A DNA stretch of 64,000 nt from contig PLDW01000143.1 in assembly GCA_003136315.1 (NCBI GenBank), positions 1-64,000 on the forward strand. The letters run 5' to 3'. The notes beneath the pieces are model-generated. The model was not told where the DNA came from and made no database searches. It worked only from the letters and a program-made list of their open reading frames with translations. The position numbers and the translations under genes were made by a program. Numbering within the stretch: the first letter of the stretch is position 1; every line of letters starts with the position of its first letter. Origin of the DNA: Gemmataceae bacterium (GTDB taxonomy: Bacteria > Planctomycetota > Planctomycetia > Gemmatales > Gemmataceae). Below, one piece after another: positions 982-19,874 of this stretch.

Positions 982-1674
982 CTACGGAATAACGTGTCGT
1001 TTCCCTACTCGGTCGCCTTGGATCGCATTGGGGGCAGGAAGGCCGGGGACGACGGTGTTCGGATAAGGCGTCCAACCCTGTGACCATTGCGGGCTCGGCC
1101 AGCCGTATGGCGAGTAAGGGCTCGGCCACCGGTTGCCGCCATTGGGCTGGACAGGCGTCCCGTAACTCCACTGCCCGGTGCTGAGGCCGACGGCCAGCGG
1201 TTCGGGCGGCATCGCCGGGGTGGTCGGCCGCTGGAAGGCCGCCGGCTCCGCCTCGAATGCCGTATCCGCAGAGAGCTTTTTGTAGTCTTCGTCGTTGAGG
1301 CCCAGATCGCCCTTCCGCTGGCCGAGGACATTCTCGATCTCGCCCTTCAGGGCCGCCCGGATGCGTTGACGTTGGTCTCCAGTCAGCTGCGAGTCGGTCC
1401 GATACGACCAGACTATCTTGCCGGCCCCGCCAGGGGTAGTGACGTATCGCACCTGACCCGGTTCGAGATGCACCTGCACGCCAACCTCGTTCGCGACCCG
1501 GCCCTCAATCGCGACAGCTCGGCTCACTTTACCGTCTGGCCGGGCCTCCAAGTAGTCCTTGATTTGGGTTTGAAGGCGGTTGGCGAAGTCGGCAGGGGGA
1601 GCGGCCCGGGCGGAAGCGGCAGCCACGAGGCAGGCGAGGAAAAGGGAGCCCGGGTACAGAATGCGGCTGCTCAT
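982..1674 (-). CDS. Small secreted protein, last gene of the GTPase/vWA operon
   Basis: 230 aa from an ATG at 1674. This start is chosen because it gives a clean signal peptide (MSSRILYPG then a hydrophobic LFLACLVAAASARA and an ARA-A cleavage site); a longer frame would bury it. The mature N-terminal ~130 residues look globular (two short lysine/glutamate-rich helices and a beta segment). The last ~70 residues are rich in Pro, Trp, Tyr and Gly (SPYSPYGWPSPQW), typical of a flexible extracytoplasmic tail. It lies 92 bp after the permease gene on the same strand and is probably the operon's last gene. No family was recognised. Confidence 0.7.
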   Translation of the reverse strand: MSSRILYPGSLFLACLVAAASARAAPPADFANRLQTQIKDYLEARPDGKVSRAVAIEGRVANEVGVQVHLEPGQVRYVTTPGGAGKIVWSYRTDSQLTGDQRQRIRAALKGEIENVLGQRKGDLGLNDEDYKKLSADTAFEAEPAAFQRPTTPAMPPEPLAVGLSTGQWSYGTPVQPNGGNRWPSPYSPYGWPSPQWSQGWTPYPNTVVPGLPAPNAIQGDRVGKRHVIP

Positions 1675-1766
1675 GGTGTCGTCCAATGGAGGTGGCCAAG
1701 TGTGAGTGCTCAGCCAACTATGATCCCTTCGGTCCGGCGTGTCAACCACCCGCCCGGCCGTCATCG

Positions 1767-3356
1767 TTAACTTGACAGGCTGAGTGAATAAATGGGCGGC
1801 CGGGTGCGGAACGGCCGGGTGGCGAGGACCATACCGGTTGCAATGGCTAGGAGGAGGGCGATGAGGAACCCGACGTAAAAGGCCCACCAACGCCACTGGC
1901 TGGCGACGGCAATCTGCTCAGTCGGAGACAACCCCGACCACCCCAAGGCGACAAAGGTCAAAACCAATCCGGCAGCCAGCAGGGCCCCGGCCACGGTCCC
2001 CATCGCCCAGAGGAGGACGGCCTCGGCCAAGGCCACCGCCCGGAGCAGCGGAGCAGGGCTCCCCATCGCCCGCAGCATCCCAAACTCGCCGGCTTTCTGC
2101 CGGGCCCGCATCCGGAGCAAGTGGTACATGCCGAGCAGAGTGATGACGCAGAACGCCCCGAGAAGGCCGTACAGTACAATCATTGTCCGCCGGGCGTTCG
2201 CCTCGATCTCTTCCAACTGCGGGATCACCCCCTCATCGACGATTAGCTTCATTTCTTTGACTGTCGCCGCCGCAGGGCGGAGGGCGGACAGGTCGGTAAC
2301 GAATATCCCCGCCCAGTTGTACCCCGGTCGCGGGGCGGGCGGGCGGTGGACCGGGTTCACTGGCTTGGGTACGTCAAACTCCGGTGTCGCCTCCTTCCCG
2401 TGCTTGCGCATCAACGCCCGGGTCTGAATCAGGTACGCCCCCCACTGGTCCAGCGGCAGTGCCATCTTGGCCTGTAGCTTCCACACCCGTTGCTCTTCCC
2501 CGAACGGCCCCTTCCGCTCCTCGTAGACGGTCAGCCCCCACCCGGGCCGGTTGGGGGTGCCGTCCCCGAGCGTGTCGGCGACATCCGGGGGGAGGGCGGC
2601 GGGGGCCGGAAAGTCGCCGACCGGGCCCGAGAACACGGCCTCGGTGTCGTCGAAGTTGTCTCCGTCGAGCAGCCGACCGTGCTCCGCCTCAGTTATCACG
2701 AACCCGTGCCCGAGCGGGAGCGGATCTCGGGTCACTCCGACCAGCGTGAGGCTCACAGGCTGACCCGTTCGGAGGCTGCGAACGATGACCTTACTGGGCG
2801 GGGCGTAGTCGTCAGGATATCCGAGTTCCGTCAGGAGCCGGCGGGACACGATCACCCCTTCAGCCTGCGGGTCGGGAAACCCCGATCTGGCTTCCAGAAA
2901 TGTGGGATCACTGAGGGCGTCGTGGAGCGGGTCACCAGGGGCGACCGTCCGACCGGGCTTCTGGACCGTGTGCATCTGTGCCGCCCCGGGGGCATGTAAT
3001 GCCCAGCCGAGTTCGATCGCGCAAAACCCGTAACACCCTCGGAGCCAGGCCCCGCCGGGCCGCTCGCGGATTCCGGCCTCCAGACGGCCCACGGTGCCCG
3101 GGTCGAACACTACTCTACTCAGTTGCGGGCTCCGGTCCGAGACCCACACGCACTGGGACAGCGGCTGGGCTGCGAGCCGGGCCTGCGCGACCGCCTTGAC
3201 GGCCCAGGGTAGGGCGAGGCAGACGGCCGCCGCCGCAGTCGTGAGCATCAGGCTGATGGCAACCACCCGAGTGGCCGGGCGGGCCTCCTTCTCGGTCAGA
3301 TCCTGCCAGGCGAACCAAACGGCAAAGCGGACCAGTCCGGGGCGGGTCAACGGCAT
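1767..3356 (-). CDS. ABC transporter permease, MacB/FtsX type
   Basis: 529 aa. The start (MPLTRPG) overlaps the stop of the upstream ATPase by 10 bp, which decides it against a longer frame. Topology fits the MacB/FtsX/LolC fold: one N-terminal membrane helix at about residues 30-52, a periplasmic domain of about 330 residues, then three C-terminal helices (YGLLGAFCVITLLGM; LAEAVLLWAMGTVAGALL; WWAFYVGFLIALLLAIATGM). The segment before the last helices (RQKAGEFGMLRAMGS) is the usual FtsX-superfamily coupling region. With the ATPase it would form a mechanotransmission or lipoprotein-release type transporter rather than an importer. Its substrate is unknown; the co-encoded vWA proteins are candidate partners. 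Confidence 0.85.
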   Translation of the reverse strand: MPLTRPGLVRFAVWFAWQDLTEKEARPATRVVAISLMLTTAAAAVCLALPWAVKAVAQARLAAQPLSQCVWVSDRSPQLSRVVFDPGTVGRLEAGIRERPGGAWLRGCYGFCAIELGWALHAPGAAQMHTVQKPGRTVAPGDPLHDALSDPTFLEARSGFPDPQAEGVIVSRRLLTELGYPDDYAPPSKVIVRSLRTGQPVSLTLVGVTRDPLPLGHGFVITEAEHGRLLDGDNFDDTEAVFSGPVGDFPAPAALPPDVADTLGDGTPNRPGWGLTVYEERKGPFGEEQRVWKLQAKMALPLDQWGAYLIQTRALMRKHGKEATPEFDVPKPVNPVHRPPAPRPGYNWAGIFVTDLSALRPAAATVKEMKLIVDEGVIPQLEEIEANARRTMIVLYGLLGAFCVITLLGMYHLLRMRARQKAGEFGMLRAMGSPAPLLRAVALAEAVLLWAMGTVAGALLAAGLVLTFVALGWSGLSPTEQIAVASQWRWWAFYVGFLIALLLAIATGMVLATRPFRTRPPIYSLSLSS

Positions 3357-4291
3357 GGCGGTGGAGTTTCCGTTGGGGGGTCGAGAACGGACCGGATGGT
3401 CGGCTCGTGATCCTTCCACTCGGACTGCGGGAAGTGACACACAAGTTCGTGCCGTTCATTGAGCAGTAGAAAGTAGTCGGAGTAGTCTCGCGCGGTTTCC
3501 CGGTGGTGGCAGACGAAGAACAAGGTCCGCCCGATGCTGGCGTCGGCCCACCGGTCAAGGCGGTCGGCGAGCCGGCCGGGGGGCCGCGCGGCCCGGGCCC
3601 GGAGGGCCTTCGCGCACCGCCGATACAGCTCGCCCGAGTGCCAGTCTCGCATCAAAGCGAGCACGGCCCGGGAGTTGCGGGGGTCGAGGTTGCTGATCGG
3701 CTCGTCGGCGAACAACACGGCCGGACCAGCGGCGACCGCCCGGACAACCGCGAACCGCTGCTTTTGGCCGCCGGAGCAGTAGCGGGGCATGGCCCCCGCG
3801 CAGGCCGCCAGCCCGCCCGCCTCCGGGTCGTCCACAATGCCCAGGGCTGGCCCGGCAGAGTCGTCGACCTCGGCGATCAGCGTGTCGGCCCACGCCGCCC
3901 GCTCGTCTGCCGCCCAACCCTGGAGTGCCAGTGGCATCGCCACGTTGTCCCGACAGGTGAAGTGAGGGAGCAGGTAGCCGGACTGGAGGACGAACCCGAA
4001 TGCGTCCGCGCGCAGGGCCGTCCGCCCCTCGCATTCGCGGTTCAGGGCGTGGTAGTCCGTCTCCTGGCCCAGCCGGGTGTAAACGACGGTCCCAGGGGGG
4101 TGTTCCTTCTCTTCCAACAGCCCGAGGAGGTTCAAGAGGGTGGATTTCCCGGACCCCGATGGCCCAAGGACAGCCACCTTCTGACCGGGCGGGAGGTCGA
4201 ATGACACGCCCCGCAGGGCCGGAGCGGGAGGGCGCCCCGGGACCGCCGCGTAGGTATGGGTGAGGTTGCGGACCCGGAATGTCACGGCCAC
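3347..4291 (-). CDS. ABC transporter ATPase, LolD/MacB type
   Basis: 314 aa from a GTG at 4291 that overlaps the stop of the vWA gene by 10 bp. Walker A GPSGSGKST is at residues 43-51, the Q-loop glutamine near 103 (VLQSGYLL), the signature motif (CSGGQ) at 172-176, and Walker B plus catalytic Glu at 191-198 (AVLFADEP), with D-loop SNLDP. The H-loop His lies in LFFVCHH. All catalytic residues are present, so it should hydrolyse ATP. It is longer than a typical LolD (~230 aa), with an insertion between the D-loop and H-loop and a C-terminal tail. It pairs with the permease that starts within its last codons. Confidence 0.9.
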   Translation of the reverse strand: MAVTFRVRNLTHTYAAVPGRPPAPALRGVSFDLPPGQKVAVLGPSGSGKSTLLNLLGLLEEKEHPPGTVVYTRLGQETDYHALNRECEGRTALRADAFGFVLQSGYLLPHFTCRDNVAMPLALQGWAADERAAWADTLIAEVDDSAGPALGIVDDPEAGGLAACAGAMPRYCSGGQKQRFAVVRAVAAGPAVLFADEPISNLDPRNSRAVLALMRDWHSGELYRRCAKALRARAARPPGRLADRLDRWADASIGRTLFFVCHHRETARDYSDYFLLLNERHELVCHFPQSEWKDHEPTIRSVLDPPTETPPPCR

Positions 4292-6777
4292 TCCCGCTTG
4301 TAGTCGAGCCAGTACCAGGCCTCCCGGAGGTTACCCTCACCAGGCGGCTGCGCGCCCCCGGCCTCGCTGCCCAGCGACTTGTCTGCCGCGGGGTCGCCAG
4401 TGAGACTGGCCTTGTCCATGAAGAAGGAGCGGTCGGTGGAGGCGTCTTTGGTCTGCTTCCCTCGCACAAGCCGCAGACCCTCCTCAAGATTATCTGGGCC
4501 GTACTCGTGCCGGCATTTCTTCAGCAAGTCCTCGAGCAAGAGCCGCTTCTTGTCCAGCCGGGTGACCATCCGCCCACCGTCCGAGAAGTTCCCGGACCGG
4601 ATCTTCTCGGGTGGGAGGGTGAGGATCTCGCTCTGAAAGATGAAGCCGTGTTTGACCTTGAGGGTCAACTCCGCCGACTGGTCCCCGGTACTCGCCGTGG
4701 CCGTCTTGCCCGGCCCCTCCTGGTATCTGGCAATGGCGCTAGCGAACTCCTGAAGCGTGGGTTGTCCCTGACGGTTCCCCAAAAGCCGGCCGAGGAGGTC
4801 ATACACCTGTAACAGTTCGTGCTCGCTTACGAGGAGTTGCTGGCGAACGAGGCTGACCCCCTTCGGGGTAGCGTCGTAGACGTACCGGAAGTCGAACACC
4901 TGAACCCCGCTGGCCAGGGTGGCCAGGTCGATCTTCTTCTGGCGAAGGATCTCCAGGAGTTCGGGGTCGTTGAACTGGGACACTGATTGGGCATTGAACT
5001 GCCCGTTCTGGATCTTACGGAGTTGGGCGTCGAGTTGGGCCGCACGCTGCGCCAGCCGGTCGTACTGGGCCAGGACCGTTTTCACCATCTCGTCTTGGCC
5101 GCCAATCGGAAAGTACCGCTTGACCCGCAGTTCGGGGAGCTTCAGACCGGCATTGAACGCCTCGGCGATCTCCTCGGTCTGGCTCTTGAACTTGGCCACG
5201 TCCTTGTCCGTGGCGACCGCCGCCGCGGTGACGTGAAAGGCGAAGAACTCGATCGGGCTCTGGCCCTCCCTGAGGAGTCGGCGGGCGGCGGCCTGTTCGG
5301 GCTTTCTCTGGCCGCCGTTGTCCATATGGTCTCCGGTGTCACCGATGAGGACCAGGAGGCGGCGGGCCCGGCCGGGGGACCAGCCGCCGTTGTCGAGGGC
5401 GAGTTGGAGCCCCAGGTACATCTGCTCCGGTGGGTCCCCGCCCTCAAACCCGGGCCGGGTCTTGTGGACTTTCAGTTCTTCCAGCATGTCCGTGTAAGCC
5501 TTGGTGCCAGCGGCCACCAGCGGCTTGCACACGACTGCCTTCTCCAGCTTCTCCCGAATGGCCCGGTCGGCCACCGGGACATCCGAGTAATAGGTCACCC
5601 CGACCCGCAGCTTCCGGCCGTCCTTTTGGACCCGGGTGATCAGTTGCTCGACGGCGGCCGCCGCCCGTGGGTGCCAGGGGTCCATGCTATCGCTGTCGTC
5701 GATCACGAACATCAGCTCGGTCAGGTCCAACTCGGCCCGGACGTACGCCAACTCCTGCTGAACTCGGGCCAGTTCCTCCCCGCGGGTGGTGGCGAACTGC
5801 TGCCCGCTGATCAGGTCGCCGATGTAGGCGATCTTGTACAGATTCGCGGCCCCGAGGGCCTCGGCCAGCACCGGACGGTTGTCCTTGTCGACCCCGACCG
5901 GGATGATCGGGTGACGGGGCCGGTTCTTGGCCCACGGGACCGGTTTCCCGTCGACAAAGTCCCCCTCGCGGGTGTCGGTGGCCACCACCTGACCGGCGAA
6001 CGCCTTCTTGGCGTCCTCGGCCGTTTTGTACGCCTTGACCGGCTCACGGTTGGTCGACTCGGTGTCCCACATCACCGCCTCGCGGGTCCGCCACAGCAGC
6101 ACCCGCTCCTTTGGCACCCACCCGATGATGCCGGACGACTCGTCCAGGACATCGCGATGTGCGGCCCGGAGATCGTTGAAGTTCGAGTCCGCGCCGATGA
6201 GCAGGAACCCATCGGTGTCGGATGCCGGGTTGGTGTCCCCCCACACGAAGAAGATGCGGAAGAACCGGATCGGCTCCAGGGGCCTGGCAGCAGGGTCGGG
6301 GGCCAGCCGGAGCGGCGCTGGCTCCAGGTCCTTGTTCGCCTTGGCGTATTTTTCCGAATTAATCAGCAGGGCCTTCAGGTACAGGGTCGAGACGCCCTCG
6401 CGGAGGGCGGCCGTCTCGGTCACCAACGACGTCTTGGGGGTCCACCCGAGGACCTTCAGGGTGTTGTCCCCCAGCCGGCCGGTCCCCAACAGGCTCTCCT
6501 TCTGGTCGTTGGCCAGCACAACCACTTTCTGGAGCCACCTCACCCCGTCTGCCCCTGACTCGTCGGGCCCGCCCGGCTTCTGCCGGGGCTTGTACCCGTC
6601 ATGCGCCAGCCAAGCCGACTTCGGGTCGGCCGGTATCCGGGCCCGGTCGGCGGGCTTGTTCAAGTCGATCGGGGTCGCATCGGTCCGGGACCAGTACACG
6701 ACCGGGTCAGCCGCCGTCGCCGGGGCGGCCCGTGCGGCCAAAGCGACGAGGATCAGGAGGAGGCGGGGAACGTTCAT
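4282..6777 (-). CDS. Secreted von Willebrand factor A domain protein
   Basis: 831 aa from an ATG at 6777 preceded by GGAGG at 5 nt. Residues 1-23 form a signal peptide (MNVPRLLLILVALAARAAPA). An SH3-like segment is plausible around 210-235 (IIGWVPKERVLLW). A vWA domain begins near 353 and has an intact MIDAS motif (D360-x-S362-x-S364 in VIDDSDSM) and a later VLIGDTGDH strand. The C-terminal 300 residues are predicted helical and charged (RLAQRAAQLDAQLRKIQ), consistent with coiled coil. vWA domains bind metal and mediate protein-protein contacts. Two neighbouring products look like MIDAS-less relatives, so this may be the metal-binding member of a vWA assembly outside the cytoplasm. Confidence 0.8.
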   Translation of the reverse strand: MNVPRLLLILVALAARAAPATAADPVVYWSRTDATPIDLNKPADRARIPADPKSAWLAHDGYKPRQKPGGPDESGADGVRWLQKVVVLANDQKESLLGTGRLGDNTLKVLGWTPKTSLVTETAALREGVSTLYLKALLINSEKYAKANKDLEPAPLRLAPDPAARPLEPIRFFRIFFVWGDTNPASDTDGFLLIGADSNFNDLRAAHRDVLDESSGIIGWVPKERVLLWRTREAVMWDTESTNREPVKAYKTAEDAKKAFAGQVVATDTREGDFVDGKPVPWAKNRPRHPIIPVGVDKDNRPVLAEALGAANLYKIAYIGDLISGQQFATTRGEELARVQQELAYVRAELDLTELMFVIDDSDSMDPWHPRAAAAVEQLITRVQKDGRKLRVGVTYYSDVPVADRAIREKLEKAVVCKPLVAAGTKAYTDMLEELKVHKTRPGFEGGDPPEQMYLGLQLALDNGGWSPGRARRLLVLIGDTGDHMDNGGQRKPEQAAARRLLREGQSPIEFFAFHVTAAAVATDKDVAKFKSQTEEIAEAFNAGLKLPELRVKRYFPIGGQDEMVKTVLAQYDRLAQRAAQLDAQLRKIQNGQFNAQSVSQFNDPELLEILRQKKIDLATLASGVQVFDFRYVYDATPKGVSLVRQQLLVSEHELLQVYDLLGRLLGNRQGQPTLQEFASAIARYQEGPGKTATASTGDQSAELTLKVKHGFIFQSEILTLPPEKIRSGNFSDGGRMVTRLDKKRLLLEDLLKKCRHEYGPDNLEEGLRLVRGKQTKDASTDRSFFMDKASLTGDPAADKSLGSEAGGAQPPGEGNLREAWYWLDYKREWP

Positions 6778-6791: not shown

Positions 6792-8210
6792 TTAATCGAC
6801 CTTCATCTTGCACAGGTCGAGGACACGGTCCTGGAGTTGCCGGTCCAGCGGGACCGTCGAGCCGGGGCCGGGGACGAGTCTCACGCTCCCGCCTCGGGCG
6901 TCGACGTGGTGCCACTGGAGCAGTCGGTCCCGGTCCTCGGGGGTGAGTTCCCGGCGAGCGACCAGCACGACGTGGACTTCCAGGTCCCGCCACCCGCCAG
7001 TGTCCGGCAACAGCGGCGGGCAGTCAATGCTCGCGACCAGGACCGCCCGGCGGGCCGGACGGAGTGGGTCGAAGAACCCCTTGAGCGTCTCCCCGAACCG
7101 ATCCGGGCTCTCAGTCGCGTTGGGGGCCGGTGCCCCCAGGGCCGACAGGTTGACCTTCTCGTCGGTCAGCTTGACCCACAGGTTGGCCTCGGCGGTCTGG
7201 GCCACGACCAACCCGACTCGCGGTCGAGCGTCCTTTCCGCGGGCGAACCGACTCAAGACATGCTCGTACACCCGGACATACTCCTTGGCGCTGAGGTTCG
7301 GGCTGCTGAGGGCGACGATCATCACGTCCCGGAGGTCGTGGGGGTTGTCCGGCGGGCGATCCTGGACCGCGGGCTTGGCAGGAGGTTGGGCTTCAGCGAT
7401 CCGTTTCGGCAATTCGTTCAGCTTGGCGGCGGTGAGATAGTCCTTCAACTCCTTCACCTGACCGGCCAGTTGGCCCGCCGCCTCGACCGCTTTCGGGTCG
7501 GGCCCAGGCGACATTTGCCTATCCCCCTTCCCGAGCGGGGCGCCGCCATCAGGTAGCTTCTCCGGCAGGCGTGCCTTGTCGCGCTTCTCGCCTGGGGCGT
7601 CCGGAGGCTGCCCTTTGAGGGCCACCGCCTTGGTGGCTGCGGCGGTGGCGACTTCCTCCAGATCCGCTGCCGAATGAGCCGGAACCACAGGCGCCAGTTT
7701 TTGACTCTTGGGCATGAGGCCCCATGCCGTGATCAGGACCGCCGCCACTGCAATGCCGCCGACGATTGCCCCGTCGAGCCGGCTCTCCCATTTCTTCGAT
7801 TTGGAAAGTGGATCGAGGCACTCCTCGAATTGCAGGCCAAGGTTGGTGATCTTCTTTCGTAGTTTCGCGAGTGTCTCGCTGGTGCCCCTCATTTCGGCGA
7901 GTCGGTAGGCCGTCTTGATGGCTTTTAACGTCTGCTGAAGTTCACTCTTCGCTTCGTTGTTATACTGCGATTCTGACTTATGAGATATTTCTTTAATACG
8001 TTCCAAGAGTTGCCTGATCTCTTGTTCCAGTATCTTCGCGAATCGTTTGGCACTCGTGTCGAGTTGCGTCGGGGCGGACTCGCTCGCCCCCCCCGCGCCT
8101 TTGCCGTCAGGCGCTTTCCCCCCCTTTGGCGTGTCAGAGGAGCCGTGGTTGGTCACTGTCGCGCTGTTCACCAGTGGCACGTCGTTCGCCTCGCCTTGTT
8201 TGTCAGACAT
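6792..8210 (-). CDS. Membrane-anchored protein with coiled coil and degenerate vWA-like C-terminus
   Basis: 472 aa from an ATG at 8210 (MSDKQGEAND) with GGTGG upstream. Residues 50-150 are highly charged and helical (KRFAKILEQEIRQLLERI), likely coiled coil. One membrane helix follows at about 173-191 (IVGGIAVAAVLITAWGLM). After a Lys/Pro-rich linker, the C-terminal ~170 residues begin with a beta strand followed by VMIVALSSPNLSAKEY and contain alternating strands and helices, resembling a vWA/Rossmann fold without MIDAS residues. This fold call is inference from the pattern. The gene ends 14 bp before the vWA gene and follows a similar membrane protein. Confidence 0.7.
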   Translation of the reverse strand: MSDKQGEANDVPLVNSATVTNHGSSDTPKGGKAPDGKGAGGASESAPTQLDTSAKRFAKILEQEIRQLLERIKEISHKSESQYNNEAKSELQQTLKAIKTAYRLAEMRGTSETLAKLRKKITNLGLQFEECLDPLSKSKKWESRLDGAIVGGIAVAAVLITAWGLMPKSQKLAPVVPAHSAADLEEVATAAATKAVALKGQPPDAPGEKRDKARLPEKLPDGGAPLGKGDRQMSPGPDPKAVEAAGQLAGQVKELKDYLTAAKLNELPKRIAEAQPPAKPAVQDRPPDNPHDLRDVMIVALSSPNLSAKEYVRVYEHVLSRFARGKDARPRVGLVVAQTAEANLWVKLTDEKVNLSALGAPAPNATESPDRFGETLKGFFDPLRPARRAVLVASIDCPPLLPDTGGWRDLEVHVVLVARRELTPEDRDRLLQWHHVDARGGSVRLVPGPGSTVPLDRQLQDRVLDLCKMKVD

Positions 8211-8268
8211 GATCCACCCATACTTAGGCATTCCTGGAAATCCGCACCCGTGACCACGTCTGCCAACG

Positions 8269-9212: not shown

Positions 9213-10163
9213 TCAGTCATTTGGGTCGGCGTCGGCCGTGGATCGCCTCGACCCGGTCCCCGGCGATGACAGCGGCACTGAGTTGCCCGCCGCCCCGTCC
9301 TGATCCGCCAGTTGCGTGGGCCTCCCCGTCACACCCTCACCAGGTCCGGTGGCGTCGATCGGGCCGCTGGAGGCGATTGGGCGGATCGGGAGGGGCGCTG
9401 CCGCGAGCGTCTCGACGGGATTCTCGTGTTCGGTCTGCTTCGCCAGTTCCGTCCGCTGGGGGGTTGTCCGCCTGTCGGTTTCGCTACGTGCGGTGTCGGT
9501 GGTTGGAACGTGGGCTTCTTTTGCGGTACTCTCGTTGTTCCGTTCGGCGGCAGTCCGGGCCCAGGTTTCCAGCACGGCGGCCCACTGGCCGGCCTGCCAG
9601 ATGAAACCGGCGGACAGGGCAACCGCTACGATCGACAGAATCAGGCCCACACCACCCACCTCAGCAAAGGAGAGGTTCACCACCGACCCGGCGGTGACCC
9701 GGGTGGCGAACGCAGCGAACCCCAGGAGGGGAAGGATACAGCATGCGGTCAGGGCCATCCGGGACCGCCGCTCCCAGCCGGTCCTCCAATCGCCGATTAG
9801 CTCTTGGGGTGTCAGCCCGGAGCGCCGCGGACCCTCCTTGGACCGGACAGCCTGCCACAGCCGGGTCGCCCAACCCTGTGCTTCCCGCCCGGTCAGGTCC
9901 CGGCGGGCCCGGCTAACCCGGGTGACATCGAGGCTCAAGGCGGCGAGCAGTCCTGCTGCCAACCCGGACCCGGACCCCAGGAACACGGCGTGGAGCGCGC
10001 GGAGGCCCGCACCGCCATCTGGCACGCCGATAGCCCAGCCCGCCGCCGCCGCCACCACTCCGACGATAGCACCGGTTACCGCGGTCGTGGACCCACCCGG
10101 GCCGCTGGCCCCGGGCAGGTATTCGTCAGCCAGCGGGGGTGGCCCCGCGTCTCGCCCGCCCAT
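9213..10163 (-). CDS. Four-helix membrane protein
   Basis: 316 aa. The ATG at 10163 shares a base with the upstream stop (TGATG), which fixes the start and implies coupled translation. Four membrane helices are visible: AVTGAIVGVVAAAAGWAIGV, then ALHAVFLGSGSGLAAGLLAAL, then a pair after residue ~140 (MALTACCILPLLGFAAFA; VGLILSIVAVALSAGFIW). Between the pairs is a basic segment with RSGLTPQELIGDWRTGWERR. The last ~110 residues are a polar, low-complexity cytoplasmic-type tail. It may be the membrane platform of the operon's complex; that is inference from position only. Confidence 0.7.
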   Translation of the reverse strand: MGGRDAGPPPLADEYLPGASGPGGSTTAVTGAIVGVVAAAAGWAIGVPDGGAGLRALHAVFLGSGSGLAAGLLAALSLDVTRVSRARRDLTGREAQGWATRLWQAVRSKEGPRRSGLTPQELIGDWRTGWERRSRMALTACCILPLLGFAAFATRVTAGSVVNLSFAEVGGVGLILSIVAVALSAGFIWQAGQWAAVLETWARTAAERNNESTAKEAHVPTTDTARSETDRRTTPQRTELAKQTEHENPVETLAAAPLPIRPIASSGPIDATGPGEGVTGRPTQLADQDGAAGNSVPLSSPGTGSRRSTADADPND

Positions 10164-12340: not shown

Positions 12341-15067
12341 TCACACGTCCCCCCGCATGGCCGGGGCGACGTACACCGCCCCGTCCGTCAGGTCCGTCGG
12401 CCGCCCCGCCACCCCTCCAGTCTGGTCGGTGACCTTGAACTCAAACTCGTCGTCGGTGTAGGACACCAGCAGGTCGGTCCTGATCCCGTCAGAGAAGCTG
12501 AACCTTAAGAAGTCGGTAAACTCCGGATCGCCTGGGAACCTCCGCAGGAGGGTGAACGACCGGGCGGCGGCCCCGGCCGCGTCCTTCTCAGGGGGGACGG
12601 TCGCCATCGGCACCTGGACCGGCGGGAGCCCCTTCAGCTCCTCGTACAGGGTGTGTTCAGAGTAGAGCAGCCGCGGCTGCTGGACGGTGTAGTCCCAGTA
12701 CCCGACATCGTAAGGCAGCCTGTTGGCGAGGTCGCTGTCGAAGTCGACTCGGATCTTCCCGTTGGACTCCTGTGTGGCCAAGGCCAGGACGGCCCCCTTG
12801 GCGGTGGCGTCCTTGGCGTTCTCCTTGTCGAAGGTGAACCGCTCGTCCTCGTCCACCGCTGCCACATGGAGGTGGGCCTTCAGGGCGGCCGTGAGCAGCG
12901 GATACTGGACGGCCTTCCCGCTGGCCACCACCCAGTGCACCTCCTCCGCCGGACCCTGAGACCGCAGCTTGCGTGCGATGAGTTCGTTGCAGTTGTCGAT
13001 GCTCCGGCGGACCTTTCCCGCGACAAGGGCATCGACTTCCCACCGGTGGATGACCACCTGACTGACGGCGTCCCGGTGGGCGTTGAGCCGGTCCGGTTCG
13101 CGGCCCAGCAAAGCCGCAGCCAGGCTGTTCGTGTTAGGATCCTGCCACCGTGGCAGCTCGACCTTGTCCTTCTCGGCCAGTGCGTGCTTCAACTCCTCGG
13201 ACAGCCTCCACAACTCCAGCGTACAGTCCCGGCGGTCATCGGTCCATCGGTCGCCGACTTTGCGGGTGGGGACGAGCCGATCGGTCGGATCGGCAGCATC
13301 AGCCGTCGCGATGAACTTCTCGAGAGCCAGCCCGGTCCGGGCCAGGTCGTCAAGGTCCGGGCCGCCGGTGGTGATACCTGTTTTCGGCCCCGTCGGCCGG
13401 CTTGGAGAGGCGAAAGGAGGGGCGTCCTGGCCGAGCTGAAGCAGGGCGTGGATGAGCTTAGCTTTCACCAGTCGGGCGACCGCCCGGGTCACGTCGTCAC
13501 CACCAAAATCCCGGACCCCGCTCCGCCCACGGACAGTGATGGCCAGGGTGTTGGCTGCCGCACCGTCCCGGCGGACGGTGGCCCGGACGAGGGCGATATC
13601 GGTCGTCCCCCCACCGCAGTCATACAGCAGCAGGTTCAGCCCCCGCTCCTCCAGGTATTCGAAACTAACCAGCCCCCCAGGGTACGTGTCGGAGTCCAGG
13701 CCCGGGCGTATGACCCCCTCGAATATCCGACGGTATACGTAGAAGAAGGCCGCGGCCGACGCCTCGTCGATAAGCAGACGAATTAGCGGATCGCTCTGCC
13801 GAAGGTCGGTTGGCCCGGTCCCGCTGGCCAATTGACGGACGGCCCGGGCGATTTTGTCGGCCGGGGCCGGGGGGGTGTCGCCCGGCGTCGTCCGGTGCTG
13901 CATCCGCAACCACCCCTTGTGGACGGCCCGTCGGAGCTGGGAGAGCTCGTACCGTGAGTACGTCGTCGGGTAGGTCACGGCGAGCTGGGACGGCCACGCC
14001 CGCGCGGCCTCCCGGTAGTGCGCAAGGAGCCGGCATGCAAGCAACTCCAGAGGCACCCTGCAGTCGAACGCGATCTCCTTTCGATCAACCTGGTCGGTTG
14101 TCATCTGCCCGTTTGCCCGGTCACGTACCACCCGGTGGGCAGCGACCACCTCGACCGTGGTCCGGCCCCCTCGGGTGGCGGCCAGCCGTTTGGACCCGAG
14201 CACCAGGCTTCGGGGGGTGGTACCCGCGGTCCTGCGTACCAGTTCGCCGATCTTCCACTCGACTGCGCTGGGCCGGTCGTCCTCAGCCCGCTGCGGGAAC
14301 CGGCGGTCTGGAAGCTCGATCTCGCCTCGCTTCAGCCAAGTCCTCACCCGGTCCACTCGAACGTCCGACGGGATGGCCGGAAGGGCCAGCCCGAGAGCCC
14401 CGAGTTGGTCACCGCGGCCGAGCTCCTGGGTGATCCCGAGCATGACCACCTGGCCGGTCCGGTCTGCCCCCTCGGGGAGCGCTGCAACCGTGCTGTTGGT
14501 GTTCCCCAAGTCCAGGGCCACGAACGCCGTCGCTGGGCCGACCGGGGTGGCCGGGGTGAACCTGAGCGTTACTCGGGTCTCGCTAACGTCTTCCGTCCCA
14601 TCCGGGTAGTACCGGAAGAACATTACCATCACATCGACGGCCGGGCACTCGGCGGCGCCGGTCGCCGCCTTGCAGAACGCCTCTGTGTTGGTGTCCGCAT
14701 ACGCCAGCAACCGGAGGGTGGTGCCAGCCGGCATCCCCCCGGCCCGGAAGTCGTTGACCTTCTGCCAGGCCTCTGAACACACCCGCTGGCCAAGCTCGAC
14801 CTTGTCGGCGCCGTAAGTCCGACAGGTCGCGAGGAGGCGCGCGGCCCGGACGGTGGGGTCGGCCGGATCGTCCGGGAACCGGATCGGCTTGGGGCTGCCG
14901 ACCACCTCGGCCTCAATGTCCAGCCACAATGTCCGGGGCCAGTACACCAGGGCCCCGCACTCGCCCGTTCGCGGCGGGCGGAGCGGGAGGGCGGAGACAT
15001 CCGAGACGAACTCGACAGTCCCGATCCTCTGGTACGCCACGATCGGCTGGTTGTAGGATGGTGGCAT
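12341..15067 (-). CDS. Hsp70/actin-superfamily ATPase (SrfB-like)
   Basis: 908 aa from an ATG at 15067 (MPPSYNQPIV) with GGAG upstream. About 180 N-terminal residues of unknown, beta-rich character precede an actin/Hsp70 nucleotide-binding core. Its phosphate-1 motif is at 186-193 (DLGNTNST) and phosphate-2 at 483-490 (DCGGGTTD), with an adenosine-type segment near 735 (VVASGKAVQYPLL). The architecture and length match SrfB-type virulence-associated ATPases better than DnaK (~640 aa, and no substrate-binding domain is seen here). It is followed upstream by a GTPase gene at 22 bp, the same pairing as SrfB/SrfC. The SrfB relation is inference from size, motifs and context. Confidence 0.75.
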   Translation of the reverse strand: MPPSYNQPIVAYQRIGTVEFVSDVSALPLRPPRTGECGALVYWPRTLWLDIEAEVVGSPKPIRFPDDPADPTVRAARLLATCRTYGADKVELGQRVCSEAWQKVNDFRAGGMPAGTTLRLLAYADTNTEAFCKAATGAAECPAVDVMVMFFRYYPDGTEDVSETRVTLRFTPATPVGPATAFVALDLGNTNSTVAALPEGADRTGQVVMLGITQELGRGDQLGALGLALPAIPSDVRVDRVRTWLKRGEIELPDRRFPQRAEDDRPSAVEWKIGELVRRTAGTTPRSLVLGSKRLAATRGGRTTVEVVAAHRVVRDRANGQMTTDQVDRKEIAFDCRVPLELLACRLLAHYREAARAWPSQLAVTYPTTYSRYELSQLRRAVHKGWLRMQHRTTPGDTPPAPADKIARAVRQLASGTGPTDLRQSDPLIRLLIDEASAAAFFYVYRRIFEGVIRPGLDSDTYPGGLVSFEYLEERGLNLLLYDCGGGTTDIALVRATVRRDGAAANTLAITVRGRSGVRDFGGDDVTRAVARLVKAKLIHALLQLGQDAPPFASPSRPTGPKTGITTGGPDLDDLARTGLALEKFIATADAADPTDRLVPTRKVGDRWTDDRRDCTLELWRLSEELKHALAEKDKVELPRWQDPNTNSLAAALLGREPDRLNAHRDAVSQVVIHRWEVDALVAGKVRRSIDNCNELIARKLRSQGPAEEVHWVVASGKAVQYPLLTAALKAHLHVAAVDEDERFTFDKENAKDATAKGAVLALATQESNGKIRVDFDSDLANRLPYDVGYWDYTVQQPRLLYSEHTLYEELKGLPPVQVPMATVPPEKDAAGAAARSFTLLRRFPGDPEFTDFLRFSFSDGIRTDLLVSYTDDEFEFKVTDQTGGVAGRPTDLTDGAVYVAPAMRGDV

Positions 15068-15089: not shown

Positions 15090-17069
15090 TCAGGCAGTTG
15101 CCGGGCCCGGGGTCCACAGCACCTTACGGATCTCCCGGACGAGCTCCTCCAGCCGGGCACGGAGCCGGCTCATCACCGCCAACACGACCTGGTGGACGGC
15201 CGTCCGGATCTTAGACCGCATCAGCTGGCGGTACTCGGCGGCCCCGAACACTCCCGCCAAGTTGTCTTCCGCCAGCCGCTGGATCAGTTCCGGTTGGTAT
15301 AGCCGCGGGCGAACCGGCGTGAGCCAGCCGAGGTTCTGCAGGTCGTCCCGACGGAACTGAACCCAGATGTCGGCCGGGCTACCGGCCGCCCCCAGCGATA
15401 GGGCCGGGAGGTTCTGCTTCTCCAGAGCGTCGGAGTAGTGGGCGTAGGCCGCCCGGACGAGTTCTCCGGTCTCCTTGTCGAGCAACGGCTGAAGGGTGGA
15501 CTCGGCATCGATTCGGTACTGCTCGTCTACCAAGGACTTGGCCGACTGCCAGCGGAGGGCCTCGTCGGTGGTCGAGGCCTCGAACCGGGTGAGCAGGGTA
15601 TCCCGAATCCGCCGCACCTCGCCCTCGAAAAACTTGCTGCGACCGAATGTCTGGCCGACCTGCCCCATGAGGGCGTTCCGCCACCGGATGGCGGCTTCCC
15701 GCTCCTGTTGGGACCGGCCGCTGGACGCCTCCTTGATCACCCCACGCAAGAACTCGGCATGCTCTGGGAGGGTGCGGGCGGCATCACGGGCGACCTGGGC
15801 GGCAACCGACCTGGCCACCGTCTCCCGGATGAGCCGCCGGAGGTTCCCGACCCCACCGTCCTTGAGCAACTCCTCGAACGCGAACTTCATGGCTGGGTAC
15901 TTACCCAGGATCTCCGCCAGCCGAGGCTCGTCGTCCGGCTCCAGGTGGATCTTGCCGAGCGCCTTCTCTCGGGCGACGGACCCGGCCTTCTTCGCGTCGT
16001 CGTAGATCGGCTTACACCCGAGGAGAACCTGGGACAGCGGCAGCCCATACCGGGTGTCGAAATCGGCGATGGCGTCGAAGCTGGTGACCCCCTGGACGCC
16101 CTCCAGTTTGGCGTGCCGCAACGGGCCGTCCATCTTGTTGACGACCACCCACACCCGGGATTCCAGCCGGTCTCCGAACTCCCGCTTCAGGTCGCCCAGG
16201 ATGTCCAACAGCGGCTCGTTGAACAGCTCTTCGGCCCGGGTGAACAGGAGGGCTGCGTCGAGCTTTGGAATGAAGTCCTTGGTTAGTACTGTGTCTACCG
16301 ACCGGGCGGCCCCGAGCCCGGGGCAGTCGACCAGCTCGATGTCCGGATCGAGGGTGTCGCGGGGGAACCGGACATCGGCCTCGGCCAGGAGCATGGTCGG
16401 GGCCGGCTGGAGTTCCCCGGCCGGGTGGACGAGGACGATCCCCCGGTCGGTGTAGTCCCGGTCCTCCTCGTGGGCCACCGCCTTGACGTGCCCAGCGTGG
16501 GCTCTACGGCTCTCCAGGAACCGGGTCAGGTATAGCTTGTCGTCCGGCTTAACCGGCCGGGCGGCGGCGGTGGCCGACGCCTCCGGGTTGTGGCCGGCGA
16601 GCTTCTCAAGGATCCGGGTCTCGTCCAGCCCGGCAGTGTTCGGGAGCCGGATCCAGTCGCACAGGATGTTCCGGCGGTGCTGGTAATCGGCAACGCACAG
16701 GTAGCGAAGGGTGAGTCCGTACTCGGGGGCCCGGCGGATCCGGGTCACGACGCTGGTGGTTGCCTTTGTGTTCCCCTCGACCGAGACCGGCTCCCCGAGC
16801 AGGTTGTTCAGGGTGGTCGACTTGCCGCACTGGGACGGGCCGAGAAACCCGACCAGATACCGCTGGCGGGTCAGCCGGTCGCGGACCTCGCGAAGCTTCT
16901 GCAGGGTTTCCGGGACGCCGGGGGCAGCGAGGTGCCGGGGGTGCTTCTCGGCCAGCTCGGCGGCCAGAGCAGCGGCCTCGTTGAACGCCGCCACCGCCCG
17001 GTCCCGGCCGGCAGGGTCGGCGGCCATCAGCGGGCAACTCGTTGGCTCCAGGCGGGGTGGTAGGTCCAT
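15090..17069 (-). CDS. Dynamin-like / SrfC-type large GTPase
   Basis: 659 aa from an ATG at 17069 (MDLPPRLEPT); a second ATG at 17027 is possible. G1 P-loop GPSQCGKST is at residues 77-85, G3 DCPG at 248-251 and G4 NKMD at 311-314. A G2 threonine is plausible in KATTSVVT (102-109). The C-terminal ~300 residues are strongly helical, as in the stalk of dynamin-family proteins, and end with a helix of repeated RARLEELVREIRK. No membrane helix is seen. Large GTPases of this kind act as assembly-driven switches. The Hsp70-like and 716-aa proteins encoded next are the likely partners. Confidence 0.8.
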   Translation of the reverse strand: MDLPPRLEPTSCPLMAADPAGRDRAVAAFNEAAALAAELAEKHPRHLAAPGVPETLQKLREVRDRLTRQRYLVGFLGPSQCGKSTTLNNLLGEPVSVEGNTKATTSVVTRIRRAPEYGLTLRYLCVADYQHRRNILCDWIRLPNTAGLDETRILEKLAGHNPEASATAAARPVKPDDKLYLTRFLESRRAHAGHVKAVAHEEDRDYTDRGIVLVHPAGELQPAPTMLLAEADVRFPRDTLDPDIELVDCPGLGAARSVDTVLTKDFIPKLDAALLFTRAEELFNEPLLDILGDLKREFGDRLESRVWVVVNKMDGPLRHAKLEGVQGVTSFDAIADFDTRYGLPLSQVLLGCKPIYDDAKKAGSVAREKALGKIHLEPDDEPRLAEILGKYPAMKFAFEELLKDGGVGNLRRLIRETVARSVAAQVARDAARTLPEHAEFLRGVIKEASSGRSQQEREAAIRWRNALMGQVGQTFGRSKFFEGEVRRIRDTLLTRFEASTTDEALRWQSAKSLVDEQYRIDAESTLQPLLDKETGELVRAAYAHYSDALEKQNLPALSLGAAGSPADIWVQFRRDDLQNLGWLTPVRPRLYQPELIQRLAEDNLAGVFGAAEYRQLMRSKIRTAVHQVVLAVMSRLRARLEELVREIRKVLWTPGPATA

Positions 17070-17115
17070 CGCGGCGGCTCGGGGGGGCGGGGTGGCTGGC
17101 CGGTGGGTGGCCGGG

Positions 17116-18417
17116 TCAGGGCTTGGCCGGCTCCGGGCCGGCGATGGCCAGCCGCAGCAGCGGCTCCCACTCTGGCAGCTCGACCTCATTGACCGCCTGC
17201 CGCTTCTTCTGGGTTGGCTTCCGCTTGTACAACAGTGCTGTCTTGGACACCCCGTTGTCGAACTCGTACACGACCAGCCGGTGGGCAGTCGGGAGGGCGT
17301 CGAGAACCTTCTGGTATCCGGCCCGGTCGACCCGGGCTGGGTCCTGGTCGACCAGGTAAACCATCCGCCCGAACGCGTCAGGGACCAGCCCGTCGGCCGC
17401 TCCGGGCTGGACCAGCGGCAGCTCGATCCAGCCCGGCGGGCCGTCGGCCGTTAGAACGACCGGCTGGCCGGCCCGGGCCGGCTTGGAGTCCTCGATCGCA
17501 CGGATCAGCTCGGCCCCGGCGAGCTGGTTGTACTTGGCCAGCTGGATCTCTACGTCGGCCTTCTTGAGCGGGAACAGCATCCACGCCCGCGCGGCACTGC
17601 CGCGCTGGAGCTTCGGGACGTTGATGTACAGCTGGTTGCGATCCTTCAGCTTGGTCGGGGCCAGCCCGTCGTCGGCCGCGTCCGCAGTCCCGATTGCCAG
17701 CGTCACCCCCTGCTTAATCTCGAAGCTGTCCAGGGCATTGCCGACCTTCTTGGCGTCCTTGATGGTTGTAACGAACTCGGTCCGTTTGTCGGACGGGAAC
17801 CCGTCCAGCCGGATCAGGTAAAAGTTGTCCCCCTGGGGCCAGTCGCCGGAGAGGGTGTCGCGGCTGCCGGACTTCGTGTCGGTGGTGTTGGCTGTGAATT
17901 TGGCCGGGGCCTTGTCGGCCGGCAATCGGAGGTTGTACAGCCCCGGCTGGACGGCCCGCAATGCGTCGCTGTCCTTGCTCAGCTTGAACGTCCCCTTCGT
18001 CGCGTCAGTGTACTCGACCGCCACGTCGGTGACCATCCGCGGCTGGGCACCGAGTAACTTCAGCTGCCACAGCGGGTCAACTGATGGGAGTTGAGTCAGC
18101 TCGAACTTTTCGGTCTTGATAGCCGGAAGCGGGGGCGGCGATGCGTCCGGGTTCTCGATCTTGGCGTATACCCCATACTCGACGGCCGACAGGGCCCGGA
18201 TGTCCGGCTGCTTCCCGTTGGCCAGGACGGGTGCCTTCCCACCTATCGCCTCAAGTGTATTCGTGACCAGTTCCTTGATCTCCTTCAGTTCCAGGTCCGG
18301 CTTGGCCCGGATGACGAAGATCAGGGTCTCGTTGGTCGGCGGCTGAGAGCAGGCCGGCCCCACAGTGAGAAACCCGGTCGCGGTCAGAAGGCAAACTGCG
18401 CACAGTGTTCGAGCCAT
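17116..18417 (-). CDS. Secreted protein of unknown function, 433 aa
   Basis: 433 aa from an ATG at 18417 that overlaps the upstream gene by 34 bp and has GGAGG-type sequence upstream. Residues 1-24 form a signal peptide (MARTLCAVCLLTATGFLTVG) ending in PAC-S; the cysteine would allow lipidation, but the box is not a classical one. The mature part contains repeated modest-length beta segments and one helix with NKLVT-type character (LELKEIKELVTNTLEAIGG). No enzyme motif was seen. Placed between the pseudokinase and the GTPase genes, it may be the extracytoplasmic sensor of the system (inference). Confidence 0.7.
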   Translation of the reverse strand: MARTLCAVCLLTATGFLTVGPACSQPPTNETLIFVIRAKPDLELKEIKELVTNTLEAIGGKAPVLANGKQPDIRALSAVEYGVYAKIENPDASPPPLPAIKTEKFELTQLPSVDPLWQLKLLGAQPRMVTDVAVEYTDATKGTFKLSKDSDALRAVQPGLYNLRLPADKAPAKFTANTTDTKSGSRDTLSGDWPQGDNFYLIRLDGFPSDKRTEFVTTIKDAKKVGNALDSFEIKQGVTLAIGTADAADDGLAPTKLKDRNQLYINVPKLQRGSAARAWMLFPLKKADVEIQLAKYNQLAGAELIRAIEDSKPARAGQPVVLTADGPPGWIELPLVQPGAADGLVPDAFGRMVYLVDQDPARVDRAGYQKVLDALPTAHRLVVYEFDNGVSKTALLYKRKPTQKKRQAVNEVELPEWEPLLRLAIAGPEPAKP

Positions 18418-19874
18418 CGCCGCTCCTCCACCTGGGTGTTCGCGTCCACTGGCGGCAGTTTCCGGATTCGCTGCAAGTCGTCGAGCAATTGCCGCATCTG
18501 CTCGGCCACGGCACCTGGGTCGCGGTCCCCAGCCGCGGCCTCCTGGCACAACCGCTCGTACTGCTTAAACCAGTCGGCCCGCAACCGTTGCCGCGCGGTC
18601 GCCTGGAACGTCTGGCTTGCGGGGGAGGTGGGCTTGGCGTCCTGGAGCGACTCCGCAGCGGCCAACTGCTCCGTGAACGTGGTGGCCTGCTCGAACTTTT
18701 GAATCGCGGCCACGGCAGCCGATTCCGCGGGTGGCGGGGTGATCGTGCCGCCACTGGTGCTGCTATTGCTGTTGCCGCTACTCCCGCCAACACTGCCATG
18801 CTGATCGAGGCTGTTCAGGTATAGCCAGATGCCCCCGCCAGCCGAGGCGAGAAGCGCGACCCCGATCACACCGGGAAGCTGCCAGCCCCGCGGCTTCTTG
18901 CCCGTCTCCAGCTCCTCGGGCGCTTCGGGTAGGGGAAACAACTGCTCGGACAACGGCGTGGCGGCCAGATGGCGGCGGAACTCTGTGGCGGACGTCACCC
19001 GCCCGGACTCCACTCCAACAAGGATACCCCACGCGCCGTTCCGCGCGGGCGTCAGGGTAACCGACCCGACGGTACCGGTGAGCAGGTACGCGAACAGTCT
19101 GGCAACCAGCTTCAGGTCGGACAAACGGCCTGGGTCGGGGACCGGGTTCCCGTGGGTCGCGTGGACGTACGGCAGGTGTCGCTTCCAGGCGTCGGGGAAG
19201 GACAGTTGCTGGCAAGCAGCCGGGTCCGGGTTGATAGCGGCGAACTCAGCCTGCTTCTGGAGCCAGGTTGGCCGGGAGAGAACATCGGTCCACGGCGGGT
19301 TGCCGTCTGGGAGCCAGACGAACCCGAGGTCGAGAAGGATCAGCGTCGGGGCGACCCCGGGCTTCTGGACGACGTACAGGTTGGTGGGGTCGACGAGCCC
19401 GAGCCGCCACTCGTGGGCGTGGAGGGCCTCGGTCAGGTCCAGGAGCCGGCGAGCGAACCCGTCGACCTCGGCCGCCGCGGGCTCGCGCGGGTCCGGATCC
19501 GGCCCGAGGGCGGCGAGACGCTCGCGCCACTCGCTCAGCGAGATGGCCCGACTCCAAACCTCGTCGGCCAGGGGCATCTCGAACAGCCGACCGGCGGGCG
19601 TGTTGCTCTCCAACCACCTGAACTCGCACCCGGCTACCCGAACCTCCGGCGGTGGGGCCTGGTACACCACGGTCTCTGGGCAACGTGTTCGGGAAAGGCC
19701 GTTCGGGAAGGCGGCGAGACGGGTGAGAGGCACCCAGGCGGTCACTCCCACTTTCCCGATCCGCCCCGCGGGGGTGGCCGGCTTGGCCGCAGCCGGTGTT
19801 GGGACCGGCGCGCTGGGTGCCTGGGGAATGCTCGCATCCAACTCATCGTCGGGGTCGATGGGGAGCGATATCAC
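18384..19874 (-). CDS. Degenerate protein kinase-like protein with membrane anchor
   Basis: 496 aa from a GTG at 19874; no strong ribosome binding site is visible. Residues 1-40 are Pro/Ala-rich. A kinase-like core follows: the sequence HEWRLGLVDPTNLYVV at about 154-169 aligns with the HRD...N catalytic loop, but the HRD aspartate position is not acidic. LLDLGF at 180-185 aligns with DFG. It therefore looks like a pseudokinase, or one with altered chemistry. One membrane helix lies at about 333-355 (LPGVIGVALLASAGGGIWLY), then a Ser/Gly linker and a helical C-terminal region. It is the first gene of the operon and a natural candidate for signal input. The kinase-fold call is moderate. Confidence 0.65.
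   Translation of the reverse strand: MISLPIDPDDELDASIPQAPSAPVPTPAAAKPATPAGRIGKVGVTAWVPLTRLAAFPNGLSRTRCPETVVYQAPPPEVRVAGCEFRWLESNTPAGRLFEMPLADEVWSRAISLSEWRERLAALGPDPDPREPAAAEVDGFARRLLDLTEALHAHEWRLGLVDPTNLYVVQKPGVAPTLILLDLGFVWLPDGNPPWTDVLSRPTWLQKQAEFAAINPDPAACQQLSFPDAWKRHLPYVHATHGNPVPDPGRLSDLKLVARLFAYLLTGTVGSVTLTPARNGAWGILVGVESGRVTSATEFRRHLAATPLSEQLFPLPEAPEELETGKKPRGWQLPGVIGVALLASAGGGIWLYLNSLDQHGSVGGSSGNSNSSTSGGTITPPPAESAAVAAIQKFEQATTFTEQLAAAESLQDAKPTSPASQTFQATARQRLRADWFKQYERLCQEAAAGDRDPGAVAEQMRQLLDDLQRIRKLPPVDANTQVEERRWLEHCAQFAF

Follow-up and report, generated by a model that had tools for sequence, protein, structure and literature searches.

What is encoded by a run of twelve tightly packed genes that joins a dynamin-like GTPase and an Hsp70-like ATPase to a set of envelope proteins? 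The question is raised by a 64,000-nucleotide stretch of DNA from a Gemmataceae bacterium (assembly GCA_003136315.1, contig PLDW01000143.1, positions 1 to 64,000; hereafter the window), in which twelve open reading frames (ORFs), named A to L, run on the minus strand from position 19874 down to 982. We found that this operon is a composite of a conserved five-gene core, A to E, and an envelope module, F to K. We propose that they form a modular trans-envelope nucleoside triphosphatase (NTPase) device, in which dynamin-like remodelling of the membrane is under the control of a pseudokinase and of periplasmic parts, probably in envelope defence or stress, and we give this reading a probability of roughly 0.45.

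An initial annotation, made from the sequence alone, had described one minus-strand operon of overlapping or closely spaced genes, and the layout agrees with it. From A to L the spacings are -34, 46, 22, 27, -1, 11, 37, 14, -10, -10 and 92 bases, the last being the maximum gap (gene-caller starts were used for C and H). The source genome comprises 11.6 Mb in 524 contigs; the window lies on contig C223, which begins at window base 1, and the operon reaches the contig edge just past L. The genes are:

18384..19874, minus strand: A, predicted membrane pseudokinase, 496 residues; N-terminal kinase fold, one transmembrane (TM)-like segment (residues 333-351) and a helical C-terminal region
17116..18417, minus strand: B, secreted-looking protein, 433 residues; hydrophobic N-terminal segment, conserved within the core
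15090..17027, minus strand: C, dynamin-like GTPase, 645 residues (ATG used) or 659 residues (gene-caller start); Dynamin_N domain with G1, G3 and G4 motifs
12341..15067, minus strand: D, Hsp70/actin-like ATPase, 908 residues; member of a wider SrfB-like superfamily, with Hsp70 profile matches and conserved motifs
10163..12313, minus strand: E, 716-residue protein outside known families; confident model for residues ~480-716, made of helices and beta units
9213..10163, minus strand: F, membrane protein with four TM segments by hydropathy, 316 residues
8269..9201, minus strand: G, periplasmic-looking protein, 310 residues; one N-terminal TM segment or signal anchor by hydropathy
6792..8231, minus strand: H, membrane protein, 479 residues; one TM segment and a conserved C-terminal domain, with BLAST matches to relatives
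4282..6777, minus strand: I, secreted-looking von Willebrand factor A (vWA) protein, 831 residues; VWA and profile matches, with residues of metal ion-dependent adhesion site (MIDAS) type at the metal-site positions
3347..4291, minus strand: J, ATP-binding cassette (ABC) ATPase of LolD/FtsE/MacB type, 314 residues; ABC_tran match
1767..3356, minus strand: K, FtsX-type permease, 529 residues; FtsX match and hydropathy
982..1674, minus strand: L, secreted-looking protein, 230 residues, the last gene before the contig end; weak relative in genome G387

No Pfam match was found for A, B, E, G or L at an E-value <=1, and those of F and H were weak (0.019 or worse).

The neighbourhoods of these genes were surveyed in 95 genomes of the organism's own family and in phylum sets of 294 genomes (for D) and 392 genomes (for A), own genome included. 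A strong match to A was defined as a profile-search E-value <1e-100, by which G352 (3e-36) and G307 (6e-31) were not counted. Strong A is present in 9 of the 95 family genomes; 13 further ones gave A matches of only 9e-4 to 9e-6, mostly short. Gene E was found in 8 of the 9 strong-A genomes and in none of the 86 others (Fisher 7e-11), and in the ninth, G384, the contig ends after D. D occurs in 11/95 family and 5/294 phylum genomes, and A, at an E-value <=1e-8, in 2/392, the source genome itself and G167.

The genes A-B-C-D-E are contiguous and identically ordered at eight loci, namely the window, contig C346 of the same genome, G368, G299, G300, G366, G387 and L045, and the operon is therefore not a chance arrangement. 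Elsewhere the core is cut by contig ends (E is cut in G329, the sequence stops after D in G384, and L043 and L044 are also truncated) or split over contigs, with A-B-C on C985 and D-E on C910 in G383. The single-contig genome G167, from another family of the class, has A-B-C-D, further genes, and then I-J-K, and no gene E could be recognised in it. Comparison of the distance matrices of the five proteins over 7 to 10 loci gave correlations of r 0.81-0.95, the highest for C-D (0.95) and for C-E and D-E (0.94), a pattern that shared species history can also produce. A to E are thus a conserved five-gene core that keeps its order and diverges together. The initial annotation had held that a failure of the genes to co-occur in other genomes would count against its reading; the eight loci, and the restriction of E to strong-A genomes, remove that objection. 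Contig C346 (loci L019/L020 of the source genome, G000) is a second, divergent locus of the long form, in which F-K follow the core, and it carries three consecutive vWA genes of type I. D gave no matches in plasmids or viral contigs, a search that did not extend to the phage collection.

C passes the Pfam cut-off for Dynamin_N (1.9e-9, 38.2 bits against 27), and all motifs quoted in the initial annotation were found in place: GPSQCGKST, DCPG and NKMD in C, and DLGNTNST and DCGGGTTD in D. In a profile comparison with the PDB, C matched SynDLP best (4.9e-16), followed by the GTP-binding protein 5owv (8.9e-9) and then by mitofusins; by profile, the cyanobacterial dynamin SynDLP is its nearest solved relative. 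Dynamin-like proteins remodel membranes, as described in the SynDLP report (PMC10104851). C shares with bacterial dynamin-like proteins the Dynamin_N domain, the G1/G3/G4 motifs, the SynDLP match and a PADLOC match to LeoA (1.2e-6), but here a single GTPase is coupled to an Hsp70-like ATPase in place of a dynamin pair. LeoA was rejected as an identity for C because only the GTPase domain matches.

A profile search with D found ATPase domains of the Hsp70 type (SSB1, 6.7e-6; 78 kDa glucose-regulated protein homologue, 7.2e-6). With the Pfam HSP70 model D itself gave no match at an E-value <=1; its relative in locus L055 scores above the cut-off. D falls below the Pfam SrfB cut-off (9e-4, 17.8 bits against 27.1), and relatives in L046 (30.0 bits) and G353 (31.4 bits) lie above it, so that D belongs, through intermediates, to a wider SrfB-like superfamily and would not be called SrfB by Pfam's own rule.

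The initial annotation had likened the C-D pair to SrfB/SrfC pairs, and on the fullest form of that view the operon would be a planctomycete version of SrfABC, with D as SrfB, C as SrfC and E as SrfA. In both systems an Hsp70/actin-like ATPase adjoins a large partner, here a GTPase next to an SrfB-like gene, and the two relatives above the cut-off point the same way. Against this, D scores 17.8 bits where 27.1 are needed, C matches Dynamin_N and gave no match to the SrfC model (Virul_Fac, PF10139) at an E-value <=1, E has no Pfam match, and the operon has extra pseudokinase, secreted and envelope genes; these comparisons were judged by Pfam models and not by the SrfA, SrfB and SrfC sequences. 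An SrfC profile search of 8 genomes gave no matches anywhere, its controls being equally silent. We regard an SrfABC version as very improbable; the link to SrfB is distant, and membership in the SrfB/SrfC pairs was not borne out.

A had been described as a degenerate kinase, and comparison of its model with known structures agrees: all 50 listed entries are kinases or kinase-like-domain proteins by title (Z 10.4-11.7), among them PknI, KSR1/KSR2 and RNase L, for a model that is itself weak (mean predicted local distance difference test score, pLDDT, of 55; built from 4 sequences). At the position that we take to be the catalytic Asp of the HRD motif, Leu stands in 9/9 aligned A rows, and the Asp of DLG/DWG, presumably the DFG position, and the presumed helix-F Asp are kept. 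Because a kinase fold is combined with Leu at the HRD position, we class A as a pseudokinase with a dead kinase domain.

The other two core proteins gave fewer clues. B matched no solved PDB chain at an E-value <=1 in a profile search. For protein E, none of 8 members matched any Pfam family at an E-value <=1, PASTA being absent from all 8 checked. Its model (mean pLDDT 58.8 from 6 sequences) had no significant fold match; Foldseek ranked GrpE chains first, at 0.22 and worse, and the VIA-align scores (GrpE, Z up to 6.1; PASTA domains, 3.5-4.5; other rows, up to 6.9) all lie within the common arrangements of that tool. A role for E as a GrpE-like exchange factor of D is therefore only an idea. 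An identity as GAP1 was rejected. Homology of E with k7, k17 or k11, the third gene, after D, at distant loci, was not supported: full-length comparisons gave 0.43-0.46 for the two tested, C-terminal parts reached 0.047 over 14 columns at best (unrelated controls reached 0.077), and short C-terminal profiles gave no cross-matches.

Distant loci with D relatives came from a profile scan of genome contigs, which gave at least 33 loci, including cyanobacteria, actinobacteria, Thiotrichaceae and a myxobacterium (among the listed loci, L040, L041 and L042 are contigs already counted as G384, G300 and G383); a single-sequence scan of genome contigs with D gave no matches. Among the matches listed, a C-type GTPase lies directly upstream of D in 20 of 28 non-edge loci, from several phyla. 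Locus L069 also has a GTPase upstream of D, masked by an overlapping frame, and in the other 7 loci none was recognised among the matches listed. C adjoins D in every uncut core locus, and the gene after D varies with lineage, k7 and k17 being related to each other (hhalign E-value 4e-5) and not demonstrably to E. Since C-D adjacency extends across several phyla, the pair looks older than the rest.

Several other genes were seen at the distant loci. AAA_15/AAA_21 (SMC-like) ATPases lie near GTPase/SrfB-like pairs in Thiotrichaceae and Parabeggiatoa (L055:1181-2533 and L047:9465-10820), and a DnaB helicase gene containing an intein was seen in a Calothrix metagenome-assembled genome (L048:2268-4040). 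Related genes stand near distant planctomycete D-like genes in L050, L051, L054, L056, L062, L064 and L066; the one tested, in L064, encodes an FGE-sulfatase (2e-53), a domain that we take to be the one abbreviated FGS. 'FGS domain' effectors in planctomycetes are named in PMC7159879.

The second half of the operon faces the envelope. The three membrane proteins of the initial annotation are F, with four TM-like segments, G, with one at the N-terminus, and H, with one. A multi-TM gene occupies the region of F in G387, C346, G321, G167 and L044; G matches the same-position gene of G387 (BLAST 8e-7), and H matches its counterparts in G300, G387 and G321 (4e-25, 9e-23 and 8e-14). In relatives F, G and H were placed by position and membrane layout, with sequence matches for some only. 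I falls below the Pfam VWA cut-off (0.0013), and its profile finds chains of collagen VI (0.0021) and integrin beta-3 (0.03); the vWA metal-site residues are kept in 4 of 5 I rows, the exception being one of the tandem copies on C346. J passes the Pfam ABC_tran cut-off (4.9e-20). Its NCBIfam LolD match (2e-30) is nevertheless below cut-off, and J falls far below the cut-offs of all the LolD, DarD and MacB equivalog models. K passes the FtsX cut-off (1e-8) and has one TM segment, ~340 residues outside, and then a bundle of 3-4 TM-like segments. L has a weak relative, at the same place, in G387 only (5e-8; 66 aligned residues at 1e-5). J and K thus resemble MacB/LolCDE-type transporters as an ABC ATPase with an FtsX-type permease that has a large outer domain, but differ from them in gene context, coming after three membrane proteins and a secreted vWA protein, and in scoring below the equivalog cut-offs. 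The earlier interpretation is supported in that the vWA and ABC proteins make up a part that faces the envelope, and the GTPase and Hsp70-like ATPase a cytoplasmic one. The set was also compared with MADS; of ten scanned products J alone matched, to mad3 (2.7e-22) and mad8 (4e-7), and MADS was rejected because the match is to the ABC domain only.

The initial annotation had read all twelve genes as a single machine; their co-occurrence stood, their indivisibility did not. F-K follow E in the window, G387, C346 and, less clearly, G167, with parts of the module in L045 and in L044, which carries D, E and I; in G351, I-J-K follow B-C-D. Strong I (E-value <1e-40) was found in 6 of the 95 family genomes (G000, G387, G321, G352, G300 and G351), and 19 further ones match its vWA stretch only. 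In G321 the module stands without A-E (H-I-J, no D, and an A match of 6e-5 over 50 residues), and in G300 and G352 H-I-J-K lie on contigs apart from A. The association of strong I with strong A is modest (3/9 against 3/86, p 0.01); strong I is present in 5 of 13 genomes that have A at an E-value <1e-30 or D at <=1e-8, against 1 of 82 others (p 1e-4). The twelve genes are two modules that travel together often, not always.

The same evidence bears on the view that one transcript carries two unrelated functions in loose adjacency, A-E being a membrane-remodelling or cell-biology device and F-K a MacB/Lol-like exporter of lipoproteins or peptides with its own vWA partner. The core-free module of G321 (a genome 82% complete), the separate contigs of G300 and G352, the lack of any I match at an E-value <=0.001 in 6 of 7 core-only genomes, and the resemblance of J to LolD and DarD all favour it. 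It fits less well with the contiguity of the modules in the window, C346, G167, G387 and G351, with D, E and I in L044, with the weak match that puts L after K in G387 also, or with the finding that 5 of the 6 strong-I genomes carry A (E-value <1e-30) or D (<=1e-8), against 8 of the 89 others (p 1e-4). We consider two unrelated functions somewhat unlikely. A tree built from 20 D proteins groups all seven core-only rows in a single clade (97/99), and the seven long-form rows fall outside it; branches are long, and the place of the window row is weakly fixed (89/93). The core-only label of G329 and G384 refers to contigs that end at E or D in genomes from which I is absent. With the distant rows as outgroup, the tree tentatively suggests that the long form came first.

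The core also has companions that lie in other genomes and so were not seen in the initial annotation. In G384, G299, G300 and G383 the gene upstream of A belongs to a family, c8, with an N-terminal DO-GTPase2 domain and right-handed beta-helix repeats; DO-GTPase2 scores are 7.2e-8 in G299, above the cut-off, and 6.8e-6 in L041 (= G300), just below it. The c8 gene is cut by the contig end in G300 and lies at or near it in G384. A second family, c11, found upstream of c8 in G299 and G383, is GAP1-N2 (7.1e-12 in G299). The c8/GAP1-N2 pair lies downstream of the operon in G387 and away from the core in G368 and G329, so GAP1-N2 is directly beside c8 in 5 of 7 genomes (G299, G383, G329, G368 and G387); in G384 the start of c11 stands at the end of another contig, and a 231-residue ORF without a Pfam match precedes c8. 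Full-length c8 (profile match >=600 bits) occurs in 7 of the 95 family genomes, all of them core-bearing (7/9 against 0/86, Fisher 3e-9). A broken copy in G340 and a partial one in G354 lack the core, and counting both gives 2/86 (Fisher 1e-7); many weaker rows of the c8 profile match the beta-helix only. PF19993 was found at an E-value <=0.001 on 5 of the 7 c8 genes, above the cut-off in G299, G383, G384 and G368 and just below it in G329. Of the 7 core-only genomes 6 carry c8, as would be expected if c8 and F-K were alternative modules for input or output, though the alternation is not strict: G387 has both, in G300 c8 is accompanied by an unlinked H-K, and both are missing from G366. Two further genes were observed upstream of A: a VIT and vWA protein in a Planctomycetaceae locus (L045:1090-4536), with a weak C-terminal EAD8 match (0.0027, below cut-off), and, just upstream in G387, genes for a hybrid histidine kinase and a response regulator (L035:268-4364).

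DO-GTPase/GAP1-N2 systems are predicted membrane-proximal conflict systems, and their linked-gene themes include tubulin, HSP70 with GrpE, and a kinase accompanied by PP2C and vWA, from firmicutes and actinobacteria, according to PMC7159879. A DO-GTPase is also reported from some phage shock protein (PSP) envelope-stress operons (PMC11237479). The operon studied here is closest to these GTPase-centred conflict systems. It shares with them a GTPase centre, a predicted membrane-proximal location, vWA, kinase and HSP70 partners in sub-themes, and planctomycete hosts, and in relatives a DO-GTPase2-type gene directly upstream of A (G299, G383, G384 and G300) or the pair downstream (G387). It differs in that its core GTPase is dynamin-like, its Hsp70-like protein is SrfB-like, its kinase is predicted to be dead and no GrpE or DnaJ gene was recognised. 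Unlike J/K here, an ABC transporter or FtsX goes unmentioned for those systems in the available part of PMC7159879, and the A-L set is absent from the themes of its section 29.

A further alternative is a housekeeping role in envelope stress or membrane trafficking, in which the chaperone D and the dynamin C would mend membranes or produce vesicles and no conflict is involved. The membrane remodelling described for dynamin-like proteins (PMC10104851), the Hsp70-type partner, the envelope parts, and the absence of any recognised toxin or nuclease among the products are what such a role would lead one to expect. A patchy, accessory distribution (D in 11/95 family and 5/294 phylum genomes, A in 2/392), two divergent copies in one genome and the link to c8/GAP1-N2 genes are not, and we hold a housekeeping role to be somewhat unlikely.

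In the trans-envelope device that we favour, the periplasmic parts (the C-terminal part of A, B, and the vWA protein where present) would detect an event at the envelope or hold on to it. The ABC/FtsX pair may work the vWA protein and its anchors as a mechanical relay, not as a pore, in the way that MacB-type machines drive their partners in the periplasm. The dead kinase domain of A would relay the signal to the inner face by binding and not by phosphorylation. C would then assemble on the inner membrane under GTP and remodel or seal it, as dynamins do, with D loading, unloading or resetting C at the expense of ATP and E possibly serving as a dedicated adaptor of the pair. The device would probably come into play when the envelope is damaged or an invader arrives, which is also the use predicted for DO-GTPase systems. 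Defence is compatible with the data, and so is envelope upkeep; we favour defence a little because of the accessory distribution and the link to conflict systems.

Several points weigh against this reading. We infer every functional step of the device, and, judging by the core-free module of G321, each module may stand on its own. None of the twelve products was recognisable as a nuclease or another plain effector, and a PADLOC scan of A and C-K (B and L being outside the scan) found no system. No DO-GTPase or GAP1 domain was found in the window operon at an E-value <=1; the source genome has no full-length c8, and its GAP1-N2 domains are on two other contigs. As the operon stops at the contig edge, loss of a DO-GTPase/GAP1 pair by assembly is possible. 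In the genome search PF19993 reached an E-value <=0.001 in the c8 of neither G387 nor G300, and G366 has the core and neither c8 (beta-helix matches only) nor I. Finally, GAP1-N2 is common in the family (47/95) and only weakly tied to D (9/11 against 38/84, p 0.03). FNIII gave no match at an E-value <=1 among the twelve products.

Other parts of the window were also annotated. A divergent neighbour on the plus strand (21161-28406) encodes HAD-like, PRTase-CE (Pfam 1.3e-17; PADLOC PRTase_III-A 8.6e-13), ORC-CDC6-like ATPase (3.2e-9), triple-CARF (PADLOC CARF6 2.5e-95) and PfkB-like proteins, and resembles a cassette of CRISPR-ancillary or conflict genes. The stretch 30435-47665 shows features of a mobile region: a ParB/N6-N4 methyltransferase, a DNA polymerase A with exonuclease, a DUF3987 protein with a weak Prim-Pol match, a serine recombinase (42055-44379) and a group II intron reverse transcriptase (45803-47665). 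A TPR-CHAT protein (plus strand, 61583-64000; CHAT 2.2e-19) continues beyond the window end.

The initial annotation could not match the set to a described system, and we likewise found no publication that joins these genes, in a literature search that most subscription journals and bioRxiv preprints lay outside. A bolder proposal, which we think unlikely, is of an undescribed machine in which a dedicated Hsp70-like ATPase runs a dynamin-like GTPase, both being commanded by the membrane pseudokinase and by a mechanical relay of vWA and ABC proteins across the envelope, built on an ancient GTPase-ATPase heart common to planctomycetes, cyanobacteria, actinobacteria and gammaproteobacteria, to which lineages bolt different sensors and effectors. 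If the trans-envelope device that we favour is right, bacteria would couple dynamin-type remodelling both with sensing across the envelope and with an Hsp70-type ATPase, and the role of SrfB-like/GTPase pairs could be probed in a defined five-gene unit. The GTPase-centred conflict systems described by prediction would gain a planctomycete branch with exchangeable modules. Dynamin is paired with Hsc70 in eukaryotic endocytosis, and on the bolder proposal the operon would hold a bacterial counterpart of that pairing, which would be of special interest in the Gemmataceae.

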